In this document: one piece after another, positions 54,677 through 60,722 of the stretch
How the letters are laid out: each line of letters starts with the position of its first letter
How positions within the stretch are numbered: the first letter of the stretch is position 1
NCBI RefSeq assembly: GCF_030285365.1
Contig: NZ_JASVDS010000003.1
Coordinates: 372,001-436,000, forward strand
Origin: Roseateles subflavus
GTDB taxonomy: Bacteria > Pseudomonadota > Gammaproteobacteria > Burkholderiales > Burkholderiaceae_C
Length of the DNA stretch: 64,000 nt
Direction: 5' to 3'
Position numbers and translations under genes: made by a program
Notes under the pieces: model-generated
What the model was told of the DNA's origin: nothing
Databases searched by the model: none
What the model saw: the letters and a program-made list of their open reading frames with translations, nothing else

Positions 54677-54680
<4 letters not shown>
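54219..54680 (+). CDS. ruvX: Putative Holliday junction resolvase / pre-16S rRNA nuclease RuvX
   Basis: A 153-residue RNase H-fold nuclease (YqgF/RuvX) that in E. coli finishes the 5' end of 16S rRNA. D35 in LAFDFGTRRIGVA is the first catalytic acid; VIGVPRHPDG and YEVDERYTSVEAE follow with the next acids. An N-terminal Ala/Pro/Ser-rich extension of about 28 residues is unusual for the family (E. coli 138). The ATG overlaps the yqgE stop, and the gene overlaps pyrR by 4 bp, giving a chain of translational couplings. Confidence 0.92.
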
Positions 54681-55186
<506 letters not shown>

Positions 55187-55191
55187 GCCCC

Positions 55192-56148
55192 ATGCTGTCC
55201 AAGCGCAACCCCCAGCTGAACACGCACGGCGAGCTGGTGCACCTGCTCTCCATCGAGGGCCTGCCCCAGGCCGTCATCCACCAGATCCTGGACACCGCCG
55301 GCACCTTCCTGTCGGTCAATGACCGCGAGGTCAAGAAGGTCCCGCTGCTGCGCGGCAAGTCGGTGTTCAACCTCTTCTTCGAGAACAGCACCCGCACGCG
55401 CACCACCTTCGAGATCGCCGCCAAGCGGCTCTCGGCGGACGTGATCAACCTCGACATCGCCCGCAGCTCCACCGCCAAGGGCGAGACCCTGCTGGACACG
55501 GTCGCGAACCTCTCGGCCATGCACGCCGACATGTTCGTGGTGCGCCACAGCGAGAGCGGCGCGCCCTACCTGATCGCCCAGCACTGCGCACCGCACGTGC
55601 ACGTGGTGAACGCCGGTGACGGCCGGCATGCCCACCCGACGCAGGGCCTGCTGGACATGTACACGATCCGTCACTACAAGAAGGACTTCCGCAACCTGAC
55701 GGTGGCGATCGTCGGGGACATCGTGCACTCGCGCGTGGCCCGCTCCGACATCCATGCGCTGAACATCCTCGGCGTGCCCGAGATCCGCGCCGTCGGCCCC
55801 AAGACCCTGGTGCCGGGGGACCTGCGCGAGATGGGCGTGCGCGTGTGCCACGACCTCGAGTCGGGCATCAAGGACGCCGACGTCATCATCATGCTGCGCC
55901 TGCAGAACGAGCGCATGAACGGCGCCATGCTGCCGAGCACGGGCGAGTTCTTCAAGAGCTTCGGCCTGACGCCCGAGAAGCTGCAGCTGGCCAAGCCCGA
56001 CTGCATCGTGATGCACCCCGGTCCCATCAACCGCGGCGTGGAGATCGCCTCCGAGGTGGCCGACGGCCAGCAGAGCGTGATCCTGCCCCAGGTGACCTTC
56101 GGCATCGCGGTGCGCATGGCCGTGATGAGCATCCTGGCCGGCAACTGA
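55192..56148 (+). CDS. pyrB: Aspartate carbamoyltransferase catalytic subunit
   Basis: PyrB makes carbamoyl-aspartate, the second step of de novo pyrimidine synthesis. The 318-residue protein has the carbamoyl-phosphate motif [12 protein letters not shown] (S66-T67-R68-T69), [12 protein letters not shown], and [10 protein letters not shown] with the aspartate loop near 235. The length and an N-terminus without extension fit the ATCases that bind a DHOase-like partner instead of PyrI. No pyrI gene is present. It is 5 bp after pyrR and 14 bp before the pyrC-like gene. Confidence 0.97.
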
Positions 56149-56162
56149 GCGGAGAACAGCAA

Positions 56163-57470
56163 GTGAAGATCCTGATCAAGAACGGCCGCCTGGTGGATGC
56201 GGCTTCCGGGCTGGACCGCGTGGGGGACCTCGCCATCGCCGCCGGCCGCATCGTGGCCCTGGGCGATGTGCCGGCGGACTTCGACGCCCAGCGCGTGATC
56301 GACGCCACCGGGCTCGTGGTGGCACCGGGCCTCGTGGACCTGTGCGCCCGGCTGCGCGAGCCGGGCCATGAGCACGAAGGCATGCTGGAGACCGAGCTCG
56401 CCGCGGCCGCCGCGGGCGGCATCACCAGCCTCGTCTGCCCGCCCGACACCGACCCGACGCTGGACGAGCCCGGCCTCGTCGAGATGCTCAAGTTCCGCGC
56501 CCGCAAGCTCAGCATGTGCCGGCTCTTCCCGCTGGGCGCGCTGACCCGCGGCCTCAAGGGCGAGCAGCTGACCGAGATGGCCGAGCTGACGGAGGCCGGC
56601 TGCGTCGGCTTCTCGCAGGCCGAGGTGCCCATCCGCAACACGCAGTTCCTGCAGCGCGCGCTGCAGTACGCGGCCACCTACGACTACACGGTGTGGCTGC
56701 ATCCGATGGACCCGTGGCTCTCCGGCGGCGTGGCCGCGAGCGGCGCCGTGGCCACGCGCCTGGGCCTCTCCGGCCTGCCCGTGACGGCCGAGACCATCGC
56801 CCTGCACACCATCTTCGAGCTGATGCGGGCCACCGGCGCGCGCGTGCACCTGTGCCGGCTCTCGAGCGCGGCGGGCGTGGCGCTGCTGCGCGCCGCGAAG
56901 CAGGAGGGGCTGCCGGTGACGGCGGACGTGTCCATCAACTCCCTGTGCCTGACCGACGTCGACATCGGCTACTTCAACACCGCCATGCGCCTGACGCCGC
57001 CGCTGCGCCAGGGCCGCGACCGCGACGCGCTGCGCGCCGCGCTGGCCGACGGCACGATCGACGCGCTGGTCTCCGACCACATGCCGGTCAGCGCCGACGA
57101 GAAGAACGTGCCCTTCGCCGAGGCCACGCCCGGTGCCACGGGCCTGGAGCTGCTGCTGAGCGTCGCCCTCAAGTGGGCCGAGGATGCCCAGCTGCCGCTC
57201 GCGCGCGCACTGGCCGTGGTCAGCAGCGAGCCGGTGCGGGTGCTGGGCAATGCGCTCGGTTCGCTCTCGGCCAGCGCCGGCCGCCTGGTGGAGGGCGGCG
57301 TGGCCGACCTGTGCCTGTTCGACGCCGGCGCCCGCTGGGCCGTCAAGCCGGATCAGCTGCTGAGCCAGGGCACGCACACGCCCTTCGCCTTCGAGGTCAG
57401 CGGCTTCGAGCTGCCCGGCCGCGTGAAGACGACGATCGTGGCCGGCACGCTGGCCTACGAGGCGCACTGA
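56163..57470 (+). CDS. pyrC': Non-catalytic dihydroorotase-like protein (PyrC'/PyrX)
   Basis: A 435-residue amidohydrolase-fold protein resembling class I dihydroorotase but with the metal site lost. The usual DxHxH is D59-L-C61-A-R63 (DLCARLREPG), the second-site histidines are missing around DVSINSLCLT (255-264), and the loop reads SDHMPVS (304-310) instead of DHAPH. In Pseudomonas an inactive PyrC' is needed to assemble and regulate ATCase; the same role is inferred here. It starts at GTG 56163, with GGAG nearby, 14 bp after pyrB. A working dihydroorotase must be encoded outside the window. Residue loss is seen directly; the structural role is inferred. Confidence 0.9.
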   Translation: MKILIKNGRLVDAASGLDRVGDLAIAAGRIVALGDVPADFDAQRVIDATGLVVAPGLVDLCARLREPGHEHEGMLETELAAAAAGGITSLVCPPDTDPTLDEPGLVEMLKFRARKLSMCRLFPLGALTRGLKGEQLTEMAELTEAGCVGFSQAEVPIRNTQFLQRALQYAATYDYTVWLHPMDPWLSGGVAASGAVATRLGLSGLPVTAETIALHTIFELMRATGARVHLCRLSSAAGVALLRAAKQEGLPVTADVSINSLCLTDVDIGYFNTAMRLTPPLRQGRDRDALRAALADGTIDALVSDHMPVSADEKNVPFAEATPGATGLELLLSVALKWAEDAQLPLARALAVVSSEPVRVLGNALGSLSASAGRLVEGGVADLCLFDAGARWAVKPDQLLSQGTHTPFAFEVSGFELPGRVKTTIVAGTLAYEAH

Positions 57471-57474
57471 GCCC

Positions 57475-58206
57475 ATGCGCGGGCTGGTCGGGCTCTGGCG
57501 TCTGCTGCGGCTGACGCTGCACGTGATCCACGGGCTGCTGATCGTGCAGCTGCGCTTCGGCACCTACACGCCGGCGCAGCGGCAGGGGCGGGTGGCCTGG
57601 TGGTCCGGCAAGATGCTGCGCCTGCTGGGCATCACGTGGGCCAGCCAGGGGCAGCCGCGCCCCGGCGCCAAGCTGCTGGTGGCCAACCATGTCTCCTGGC
57701 TCGACATCGCGGCGGTCCATGCGCTCATGCCGGAGGCACGCTTCGTCTCCAAGTCGGACGTCAAGGCCTGGCCGCTCGTCGGCACGCTGGTGACGGCGGT
57801 GGGCACGCTCTACATCGAGCGTGCCTCCAAGCGCGATGCGCTGCGCGTGGTGCACCAGTGCGCCGAGGCGCTGCGGGCCGGCGACACCATCGCCTTCTTC
57901 CCCGAGGGCACGACCGGCCCCGGCCCCGAGCTCCTGCCCTTCCACGGCAATCTGCTGCAGGCGGCCATCGCCACCGAACTGCCGGTGCAGCCCGTGGTGC
58001 TGCGCTGGCACGAGCCCGGACAGCGCTACAGCCACAGCGCCCGCTTCATCGGGGACACGACCCTGGTGCAGAGCCTCTGGCGCGTCGTGACGGCCCGGGG
58101 CCTGGCCATCGAGCTGCAGGTGCTGCCGGCCCACGCCACGGCCCATGCCGACCGCCGTCTGCTCGCCGATCATCTGCGCGACTTGATCGCCGCCAAGCTT
58201 GGCTGA
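57475..58206 (+). CDS. plsC: 1-acyl-sn-glycerol-3-phosphate acyltransferase
   Basis: A 243-residue membrane-bound acyltransferase of the PlsC family, which turns lysophosphatidate into phosphatidate in phospholipid synthesis. An N-terminal hydrophobic helix is followed by the HX4D motif NHVSWLD (H72, D77) and FPEGTTG (142-148). TVMGTLYIER-type binding stretches appear at 108-115. It begins 4 bp after the pyrC' stop and is the last of the yqgE-ruvX-pyrR-pyrB-pyrC' run. The next gene starts 25 bp later. Confidence 0.92.
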
Positions 58207-58231: not shown

Positions 58232-59800
58232 ATGAGCGCCCAAGCCTCCCATCTCCAGATCCGCCGCGTCGGCATCGACACCTGGCGCGAGAACGTCGCC
58301 TACCTGCACCGGGACTGCCCCGTGGTCCGCGCGGCGGGCTTCCAGGCGCTGTCCAAGGTCGAGATCCACGCCAACGGCTGCACCATCCAGGCGGTGCTGA
58401 ACGTGGTGGATGACGAACGCATCGTCAGCATCTGCGAGCTGGGCGTGAGCGAGGAGGCCTTCGCGCGGCTGGGCGTCGCCGAGGGCCACGTCGCGAGCAT
58501 CGCCCATGCCGAGCCGCCGCACTCCATCGCGGCCCTGCACCGCAAGATCAATGGCGAGCGCCTGGGCCGCGAGGACCTGATGGCCATCATCAAGGACATC
58601 GCCGAGGCCCGCTATTCCAAGATCGAGCTGGCGGCCTTCGTGGTCGCGACCAACCAGGTCGAGCTGGACCGCGAGGAGGTGCTGCACCTCACCGAAGCCA
58701 TGATCGCGGTCGGCCGTCGCCTGGACTGGCGCGCACAGGTGGGCTCGGGGCCGGTCGTGGACAAGCACTGCATCGGCGGCATCCCGGGCAACCGCACGTC
58801 CATGCTCGTGGTGCCCATCGTCGCGGCGCACGGCATGCTGTGCCCCAAGACCAGCTCGCGCGCCATCACCTCGCCCGCCGGCACGGCCGACACCATGGAG
58901 GTGCTGGCCAACGTCGAGCTGCCCTTCGACCGCATGGTGAGCATCGTGCGCGACCACCATGCCTGCCTCGCCTGGGGCGGTACGGCGGACCTCTCGCCGG
59001 CGGACGACATCCTCATCAGCGTCGAGCGGCCTCTGTCCATCGACTCCCCGGGGCAGATGGTGGCGTCCATCCTGTCCAAGAAGATCGCCGCCGGTTCCAC
59101 GCACCTCGTGCTCGACATCCCGGTGGGCGAGAGCGCCAAGGTGCGCTCGATGGCCGAGGCGCACCGGCTCAAGAAGCTCTTCGAGTTCGTGGCGGAGCAC
59201 CTGCGCCTGCAGCTGGACGTGGTCATCAGCGACGGCCGCCAGCCCATCGGCCGCGGCATCGGTCCGGTGCTGGAGGCGCGCGACGTGATGCAGGTGCTGC
59301 GCGGGGACCCCGCGGGACCGCACGACCTGCGCCAGAAGTCGCTGCGCCTCGCCGGCCGCATGATCGAGTTCGACCCCGATGTGCGGGGCGGGCAGGGCTA
59401 CCAGATCGCCCGGGACATCCTGGAATCCGGCCGTGCGCTGGCGCAGATGGAGGCCATCATCGACGCCCAGGGCCGCCGCGCCGAGCCGCCTTCGCTGGGG
59501 GCGCTGAGCACCGAGATCCTCGCGCCGCAGGACGGCGTGGTGCTGGCTCTGGACAACCTGCGCATCGCCCGCATCGCCCGCCTGGCCGGCGCGCCGCAGG
59601 TGCCCGGCGCGGGCCTGGACCTGCTGCGCAAGCTGGGCGACCCGGTGAAGGCCGGCGAGCCGCTCTACCGCATCCATGCCCAGTACCCGACGGACCTGCA
59701 GTTCGCCCGCGAGCTGGCGGCCCGGGACAGCGGCTGCCGCCTGGGCAGCGCCGCCGACTGGGCCGAGGCCTCGCACGCCGCGGGCTTCTTCTCGATCTGA
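58232..59800 (+). CDS. AMP phosphorylase-type / thymidine phosphorylase family enzyme
   Basis: A 522-residue nucleoside/nucleotide phosphorylase. It is longer than bacterial DeoA (440) because of an N-terminal domain of about 85 residues, as in archaeal AMP phosphorylase. The active-site elements are [10 protein letters not shown] (178-187) and [20 protein letters not shown] (206-225). AMP phosphorylase releases a base from AMP and forms ribose-1,5-bisphosphate; bacterial members are usually annotated as thymidine phosphorylase. The substrate is not proven. The ATG at 58232 follows plsC by 25 bp. The next gene is a PRPP-synthetase-like protein 31 bp downstream, which supports nucleotide-ribose salvage. 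Confidence 0.86.
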
Positions 59801-59831
59801 TCACCTCCTGAACCCGACCCTGAACTGCGCC

Positions 59832-60722
59832 ATGGCTCAAGACCTGACCCTGCTGCTCGCCTTCGAGGACGAAGCGCCCCTGGCCCGCGAACTGGCGGAG
59901 GCCCTCGGCCTGCGCCTGGACTTCATCCGCCGCCACCGCTTCCCCGATGGCGAGCTGCGCCTCGTGCTGCCCAAGCCGCTGCCCGAGCGCGTGATCCTCT
60001 TGCGCGGCCTGCAGCAGCCCAACGAGAAGATGGTGGAGCTGCTCATCGCCGCGCCCGCCGCGCGGGAGCTCGGGGCGCAACGCCTGACCCTCGTCACGCC
60101 CTACCTCGCCTACATGCGCCAGGACATCGAGTTCACCCCCGGCGAGGCTGTCAGCCAGCGGCATGTGGCGCGCTGGCTGGCCCAGCTCTTCGACCGCGTG
60201 ATCACGCTGGACCCGCACCTGCACCGCATCAGCAGCCTGGACGAGGTCATGCCGCCCGGTGTCGGCGTGGCGCTGTCCGTCGCCCCGGTGCTGGGCGCCT
60301 GGATCGCCCGCCACGTGCCGGGCGCACTGCTGATCGGGCCGGACGAGGAGTCGGGCCAGTGGGTCAAGGAAGCCGCCCAGGCCGGCGGCCTGGATCACGC
60401 CGTGGGTCGCAAGCTGCGCGAGGGCGACCACCAGGTCCGCCTGGCCCTGCCCGACGTCGAGGTGAAGGGCAGGGCGGTCGTGCTGCTGGACGACATGGCC
60501 TCCACCGGCCGCACCCTGATCGGCGCGGCCGAGCAGTTGCTGGCGCGCGGGGCGGCCTCGGTGGACGTGGCGGTCACGCATGCCCTTTTCAACGGCGATG
60601 CCTTGCCTTTGCTGAAGGCGGCAGGCGTGCGCCATGTCTGGAGCAGCAACGCGGTGCCGCACGAGAGCAACGCCGTCAGCGTCGTGCCCCTCATCGCCGC
60701 GGCCATCGACGCGCGCGGCTGA
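59832..60722 (+). CDS. Ribose-phosphate pyrophosphokinase-like protein
   Basis: A 296-residue Prs-like protein. The PRPP-binding loop LLDDMASTGRTL (D220, D221, T225, G226, T228) and motifs RFPDGELRL and PYLAYMRQD are kept. It is shorter than standard Prs (about 315), and its VITLDPHLHRISSL and LVTPYLAYMRQD segments are diverged, so it may belong to a separate group. It might convert ribose-1,5-bisphosphate or ribose-5-phosphate to PRPP, linking to the phosphorylase before it. It is co-oriented with that gene with a 31-bp gap. A house-keeping prs is expected elsewhere in the genome. Confidence 0.84.
   Translation: MAQDLTLLLAFEDEAPLARELAEALGLRLDFIRRHRFPDGELRLVLPKPLPERVILLRGLQQPNEKMVELLIAAPAARELGAQRLTLVTPYLAYMRQDIEFTPGEAVSQRHVARWLAQLFDRVITLDPHLHRISSLDEVMPPGVGVALSVAPVLGAWIARHVPGALLIGPDEESGQWVKEAAQAGGLDHAVGRKLREGDHQVRLALPDVEVKGRAVVLLDDMASTGRTLIGAAEQLLARGAASVDVAVTHALFNGDALPLLKAAGVRHVWSSNAVPHESNAVSVVPLIAAAIDARG

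Follow-up and report, generated by a model that had tools for sequence, protein, structure and literature searches.

What is a nucleotide phosphorylase doing beside a protein that resembles phosphoribosyl pyrophosphate (PRPP) synthase? The question is raised by two genes in a stretch of 64,000 nucleotides from Roseateles subflavus (contig NZ_JASVDS010000003.1, positions 372,001 to 436,000; hereafter the window), part of a genome of 5.05 Mb in 23 contigs. The first gene (58232..59800, + strand; coding 58232-59797 plus stop) encodes a 522-residue phosphorylase of the nucleoside 5′-monophosphate (NMP), or AMP, type. The second (59832..60722, + strand; coding 59832-60719 plus stop) begins 31 bp further on and encodes a Prs-like protein of 296 residues (PRK07199 family). 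Both lie behind a pyrimidine operon, and the coordinates bear out this part of the original prediction, which proposed that the two proteins could recycle nucleotide ribose to PRPP.

Ribose-1,5-bisphosphate (R15P) is mostly regarded as an archaeal or a phosphonate intermediate, and the route to it from nucleotides is known so far mainly from archaea. Our analysis identifies the pair as a real, conserved unit with parts already known, a variant of the R15P-based pathways. The phosphorylase is very probably an NMP phosphorylase that makes R15P and, with less assurance, its partner is probably a Prs-family phosphotransferase with R15P as its pentose substrate. The version to which we commit, at a rough probability of one in three, is that the 1-phosphate of R15P would be passed to AMP or ADP, leaving ribose-5-phosphate (R5P). 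Families, conservation, gene context and residues were computed, and from these we infer every reaction in the scheme.

Tree and residues place the phosphorylase with the archaeal enzymes

The phosphorylase matched NF003338 (701 bits, residues 7-505) and TIGR02645 (603 bits), in both cases above cut-off. It aligned with TIGR03327 (AMP_phos) over residues 8-501, at 489.8 bits under an equivalog cut-off of 535, whereas the DeoA and PyNP models aligned only from residue 102-103. These alignment limits indicate that the extra N-terminal domain of the original prediction is present, about 85-100 residues ahead of a DeoA-like core. The four DeoA/PyNP models listed also stayed below their cut-offs (156.1, 196.9, 202.7 and 145.1 bits for TIGR02643, TIGR02644, NF004490 and NF004747, vs. 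570.7, 409.05, 269 and 559, respectively).

The closest solved structure was that of the Thermococcus kodakarensis enzyme (4ga5, E 9e-99). This archaeal protein, TK0352 (4ga5, 4ga6), carries out phosphorolysis of all natural NMPs and was formerly misannotated as a thymidine phosphorylase (PMC8376864; PMC9700705; these and the other papers cited are drawn on in excerpt). The window enzyme has the same N-terminal-domain layout, falls in the same clade and shares the residues that distinguish TK0352 from DeoA; it differs in falling short of the TIGR03327 cut-off and in its phosphate motif, with Lys178 for Val163 and, mostly in the family, Cys180 for Ser165.

A quick maximum-likelihood tree was built from 70 rows, after removal of five near-copies from the 75 assembled (L089 and L122, broken or cut, were omitted). 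In it, the window protein, the other bacterial members, nine domains from fusion proteins described below and four archaeal enzymes stood opposite six DeoA sequences with a support of 100. The four archaeal enzymes nested among the bacterial ones: they shared a set (support 96) with 25 rows from bacteria, of which 19 are linked to a hydrolase gene. The alignment agreed with the tree: 28 columns were common to all four archaeal enzymes and to 90% or more of the 56 bacterial members, and were absent from the six DeoA proteins. Six residues, K206, S209, T213, S214, W248 and K303, were found in 56/56 bacterial, 4/4 archaeal and 9/9 fusion proteins and in 0/6 DeoA. In one alignment, the column of DeoA Arg171, presumably a base-binding residue, held Glu in 56/56 bacterial and 4/4 archaeal members, and the fusions had Thr, Val or Asn there; in another it fell in a gap, with a mostly conserved Arg266 one residue on. 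Both the archaeal clade and the shared residues support the AMP-phosphorylase type originally assigned.

The name of NF003338 and the NCBI product name of relatives, 'thymidine phosphorylase family protein', would make this a true thymidine or pyrimidine-nucleoside phosphorylase. The model cut-offs, the residues and the separate clade led us to reject that identity, and a separate DeoA-type gene, with 55% identity to E. coli DeoA, is present in the same genome (G000:C18). We therefore hold the reading to be very improbable; the database names of the two genes, thymidine phosphorylase and PRPP synthetase, are probably misnomers.

The two genes form a conserved pair

Three overlapping genome samples were searched, comprising 60 relatives (own genome included), 398 Pseudomonadota and 399 genomes of the order. 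Among the relatives, the phosphorylase was above cut-off in 14, the Prs-like gene in 16 and both in 13. The corresponding counts were 45, 41 and 40 in the phylum (44 phosphorylases and 40 Prs-like genes being above cut-off), 33, 28 and 27 in the order, and 80, 75 and 70 in the union of the samples. Both genes thus occur in 40/45 (phylum) and 27/33 (order) phosphorylase-bearing genomes, and they co-occur far more often than chance would allow (Fisher p 3e-48 in the 398 phylum genomes). The original prediction had tied its module idea to conservation of the pair, and the pair is conserved.

To look at arrangement, we used 66 fetched stretches (L078-L143), six chosen from plasmid records and two from the window's own genome; 61 contained the phosphorylase, 56 the Prs-like gene and 52 both. 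The genes were adjacent (gap of at most 161 bp) in 50 of these 52, with an overlap of 1-7 bases in 35 (starts chosen by script), and five annotated records give the same 4-base overlap. Protein distances of the two partners were strongly correlated over 50 loci, two of the 52 having been dropped as incomplete (r=0.91; 0/2000 permutations as high). In Azospirillum ramasamyi the two genes sit on two plasmids.

The exceptions are of several kinds. At the thresholds applied, ten genomes of the union had a phosphorylase and lacked the Prs-like gene: six with PhnN fusions (G024, G305, G363, G434, G444, G720), one with a disrupted phosphorylase (G311), one whose gene is cut by a contig end (G756), and G529 and G786. 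The phosphorylases of these last two (L217 and L222) are close to the window type, at 63-66% identity. Nine fetched phosphorylase loci had no Prs-like gene, namely five fusions, the disrupted L089, L098 and L130, which are second copies in genomes with the pair elsewhere, and L078, from Azospirillum oryzae. Conversely, the Prs-like gene stood alone in five genomes of the union (G013, G015, G035, G435 and the incomplete G567).

A PRPP-synthase fold with a change in the presumed pyrophosphate loop

The Prs-like protein of the window exceeded the cut-off of NF005537, a model named ribose-phosphate diphosphokinase (374.7 vs. 322 bits). Its predicted structure (mean predicted local distance difference test score, pLDDT, 95.6) has the fold of a PRPP synthase; ranked by E-value, 1u9y of Methanocaldococcus jannaschii came first (template modelling, TM, score 0.86), and 3mbi of Thermoplasma volcanium gave a TM score of 0.90.

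Residues were counted in 56 proteins (55 loci plus the window), in E. coli numbering. H131, D170, D220, D221 and T228 were kept in 56/56, F35 and D37 in 55 (one row is truncated there), and position 225 was Thr or Ser. All eight are among the ADP and R5P ligands reported for E. coli PRPP synthase, as is R99 (PMC9232217), which was not kept across the Prs-like proteins. The catalytic K194 and R196, a K-x-R motif in the Prs flexible loop (60411..60419, + strand), were present in 56/56; loss of their counterparts in human PRS1 abolished activity (PMC4363470). Human K99A had no detectable activity in the same study, and Lys99 should correspond to E. coli position 99 or 100. A Lys or Arg at either position was found in 23/56 Prs-like proteins and was missing in 33/56, including that of the window.

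A further change concerns the PDxGG loop of E. coli Prs, which we take to be the counterpart of the phosphoribosyltransferase pyrophosphate loop. In the window it reads PDEES, within GPDEESGQW (60336..60362, + strand). Gly172, taken here as a marker of PRPP synthases (it is followed by a second Gly in E. coli and by Ala in M. jannaschii), was Glu in 56/56 proteins, and Gly173 was Ser in 52/56. The 'intact PRPP loop' of the original prediction therefore stands in part: the ribose-5-phosphate loop is kept, with Asp224 changed to Ser and Gly227 to Arg, but the presumed pyrophosphate-binding loop is not. Compared to the archaeal-type PRPP synthases (1u9y, 3mbi), the protein has the same fold, most of the nucleotide and ribose-phosphate ligands and the catalytic Lys and Arg; it differs in the Glu172/Ser173 loop, in His133-Arg134 (E133H and Q134R, 56/56), in Trp176 (R176W, 55/56), in an extra Asp after position 198 (56/56) and in the loss of the 99/100 basic residues.

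One alternative would be an ordinary accessory PRPP synthase (R5P + ATP -> PRPP + AMP), with a phosphorylase that removes AMP or works alone. The Prs fold, the universal K194, R196 and R5P ligands (D170, D220, D221, T228) and the model name are all consistent with this. According to a preprint that sets out many classes of bacterial Prs, catalytic residues are retained across the major ones (PMC13252144), and the four intact solo Prs-like genes would need no source of R15P. Against this stand the substitutions at 172 and 173, the 33/56 proteins with no basic residue at 99/100, the tight pairing with an R15P-type enzyme and the presence of a canonical Prs elsewhere in the genome (G000:C12). On balance, we find this explanation doubtful.

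In a sister branch, the phosphorylase is fused to PhnN

Five of seven solo phosphorylases examined carried, in the same open frame, an N-terminal domain of PhnN, the ribose-1,5-bisphosphate phosphokinase. Seven aligned fusion proteins had the P-loop GPSGxGKD in common and all seven matched TIGR02322 (181.4 bits for the first one, above the cut-off of 156). Two plasmid records annotate the whole fusion as one coding sequence, phnN, and no stop separates the two domains in L157, L158 and L209. Ten fusion loci were collected from chromosomes and plasmids (L088, L099, L117, L118, L132, L155, L156, L157, L158 and L209), to which a scan of genome contigs with the fusion alignment (51 loci, nearly all PhnN-only) contributed one fusion, from Bosea. 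The gene directly upstream on the same strand was nadC in 10/10 fusion loci. A phosphonate operon was rejected as the setting of these fusions, since the ten loci gave no match to PhnM or PhnJ and only weak ABC-type PhnL matches in L118 and L156. In Variovorax, bug27 adjoins nadC and phnN and PRPP is linked to the quinolinate enzyme, with no fusion mentioned in the excerpted text (PMC11452294). A literature search on PhnN with thymidine phosphorylase yielded no description of the fusion that we recognised among the matches listed.

Thus, in one branch, evolution joined the phosphorylase to an R15P kinase and to a PRPP user, nadC. This connects the phosphorylase with R15P, and both the fusion and the nadC operons open the proposed role of R15P to a direct test. 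In these operons PhnN occupies the place of the Prs-like partner, although it is an unrelated P-loop kinase and no fusion exists in the window.

The fusions raise the possibility that the Prs-like protein catalyses the PhnN reaction (R15P + ATP -> PRPP + ADP), such that the pair recycles nucleotide ribose to PRPP. Six genomes have the phosphorylase fused to PhnN and no Prs-like gene, a PRPP user accompanies all ten fusion loci, and in five genomes (the window and four relatives) the pair lies behind genes for pyrimidine synthesis, a pathway needing PRPP. However, in the phosphorylase tree the fusions form a branch of their own, apart from the pairs (support 92), and the phosphoketolase neighbours described below require R5P, not PRPP. 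The usual Prs chemistry is an attack on the beta phosphorus of ATP; attack of the 1-phosphate on the gamma phosphorus would be a larger change. We regard a PhnN-like partner as a possibility worth keeping in view, but not one that we would expect to hold. The proposed module from nucleotide ribose to PRPP fares unevenly: the sister-branch fusions support the step from R15P to PRPP indirectly, while the changed pyrophosphate loop and the phosphoketolase neighbours elsewhere point at least as much to R5P.

Hydrolase and phosphoketolase neighbours in other genomes and a possible nucleotide breakdown under low oxygen

Of the 61 phosphorylase loci, 27 have a beta-CASP metallo-hydrolase gene next to them; 24 of these contain the Prs-like gene as well, and five of the 27 were chosen from plasmid records. 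In these hydrolase-type loci, Beta-Casp and RMMBL were each matched by 18 among 77 of the 114 listed neighbours, and the protein is, judging by these families, a probable ribonuclease. No such gene adjoins the window pair, but one beta-CASP-type hydrolase is encoded elsewhere in the same genome (G000:C21, 49% identical to that of Acidovorax).

The hydrolase bears on whether the pair might run in the building direction, with R5P + ATP -> R15P + ADP followed by R15P + base -> NMP + phosphate, as a nucleobase salvage without PRPP. Phosphorolysis equilibria favour synthesis and the pair adjoins pyrimidine genes, both in keeping with this idea; the probable ribonuclease beside 27/61 loci points instead to breakdown, and we consider the building direction quite unlikely.

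A near-full-length phosphoketolase adjoins the unit in 6/72 loci (L091, L094, L095, L114, L127 and L241, the last being the query source), and all six match the Pfam phosphoketolase families; weaker or partial matches were seen in L136 and L138. A Criblamydia plasmid cluster (L236 1-8488) is annotated as phosphoketolase, glucan phosphorylase, ATP-cone protein, metallo-beta-lactamase (MBL) hydrolase, phosphorylase, Prs-like protein and acetate kinase; the phosphoketolase query derived from L241 did not match, at 1e-15, the cut gene so annotated there. In Pontibacter (Bacteroidota, L239) the order is ATP-cone, MBL, phosphorylase and Prs-like.

An FNR-type box (at most one mismatch) was found in 7/27 hydrolase-type loci, three of them of one genus, vs. 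0.32 expected from shuffles. The loci without a beta-CASP gene had 2/28 (both of one genus) vs. 0.26 expected, and the fusions 0/5. In Bradyrhizobium diazoefficiens, bll3117-bll3116-bll3115 encode the same two families plus an MBL-fold hydrolase, and are up in microoxia at both the transcript and the protein level (PMC6515984). Deletion of fixK2 lowers bll3117 and bll3115, whose predicted operon includes bll3116, as well as bll2518-bll2517, an operon for phosphoketolase and acetate kinase (PMC9104804). Compared to this operon, the window pair has no adjoining hydrolase and no convincing FNR box: a lone one with one mismatch, at -49 inside plsC and also present in the congener L125, did not persuade us of FNR control. 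A Burkholderia low-oxygen locus also includes an MBL protein (PMC6127331); L089 (10073-10963), where a disrupted phosphorylase lies near a beta-CASP hydrolase and universal-stress-type genes, is perhaps like it.

A possible route from nucleotides to R5P

The known outlets for R15P were not found in the window's genome. The original prediction had noted that the window holds neither RuBisCO nor R15P isomerase, and searches of the whole genome gave no match to either (PF02788 and TIGR00511, respectively), a difference from the archaeal pentose bisphosphate pathway that led us to reject both as outlets. PhnN was rejected likewise, its best match in the genome being below cut-off (55 vs. 156 bits).

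We propose that the phosphorylase would convert NMP and phosphate to base and R15P, and that the Prs-like protein would then catalyse R15P + AMP (or ADP) <-> R5P + ADP (or ATP). The Prs-like protein appears to retain its adenine-nucleotide and ribose-5-phosphate sites, while Glu172-Ser173 would block the pyrophosphate loop; for this reason we favour movement of a single phosphoryl rather than a pyrophosphoryl group. R5P is favoured as the product because the phosphoketolase neighbours need it. The net reaction would be NMP + phosphate -> base + R5P, with phosphate-bond energy conserved. In genomes with an adjoining beta-CASP hydrolase and phosphoketolase, RNA ribose could then be taken to acetyl-phosphate under low oxygen. 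For the window's own branch, behind a pyrimidine operon and with no phosphoketolase, our claim is the modest one of nucleotide-ribose recycling or rebalancing.

Several observations weigh against this scheme. Moving the 1-phosphate of a sugar onto ADP or AMP runs energetically uphill. The phosphorylase misses the TIGR03327 cut-off, and the Prs-like proteins of L081 and L127 keep Arg at both 99 and 100. The presence of PhnN in the fusions argues for PRPP rather than R5P. Only a minority of the loci have a phosphoketolase next to the unit, none was found in the window's genome (PF03894), and the beta-CASP gene lay beside 0/21 fetched phosphorylases at least 60% identical to that of the window. 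The Prs-like gene was not found in G529 and G786 (order search) despite an intact phosphorylase, and the intact solo Prs-like genes of G013, G015, G035 and G435 keep the family residues; these four and the two intact solo phosphorylases speak against a strict module. Lastly, in the excerpted text of PMC6515984 the three B. diazoefficiens genes are neither marked as FixK2 targets nor induced in bacteroids.

A broader proposal, which we put forward tentatively and hold loosely, is a RuBisCO-free bacterial pentose bisphosphate pathway. In it, RNA would be converted to R5P, with recovery of a phosphate bond, by three enzymes (a beta-CASP ribonuclease, the NMP phosphorylase and the Prs-derived phosphotransferase). 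Phosphoketolase would carry the R5P on to acetyl-phosphate, making RNA a reserve for fermentation when oxygen is low, and PRK07199 would then be a new activity on the PRPP-synthase scaffold, not a PRPP synthase. If true, a conserved bacterial source of R15P, named thymidine phosphorylase in 44/398 sampled Pseudomonadota genomes, would alter how nucleotide salvage and survival at low oxygen are understood in many bacteria, and the Prs-like family would be an example of a pyrophosphokinase turning into another enzyme.

Gene surroundings

The gene order in the window, all on the + strand, is pyrR-pyrB-pyrC-plsC-phosphorylase-Prs-like. A pyrR-type phosphoribosyltransferase (54677..55186; PF00156) and pyrB (55192..56148), both conserved neighbours, are followed by a pyrC-type dihydroorotase (56166..57470, its start approximate and set by analogy with L125); pyrB and the pyrC-type gene come from the list of open reading frames (ORFs) and were named by sequence reading. 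A plsC-type acyltransferase (57475..58206; PF01553) lies directly upstream of the phosphorylase, with a gap of 25 bp, and the same order is seen in the four relatives (L085, L124, L125, L131). Across 20 loci of the window's kind, only scattered housekeeping families such as EF-P were recognised among 80 of the 110 listed neighbours.

Three more genomes (G013, G015, G035) keep the Prs-like gene behind the same pyr-plsC genes, the phosphorylase being gone (L139 9241-10122, L140 9390-10289 and L141 9599-10495). The gap in L139 contains an ORF of about 590 residues on the opposite strand. On a Legionella anisa plasmid (L237 78-6538), F0F1-ATP synthase genes directly follow the pair.

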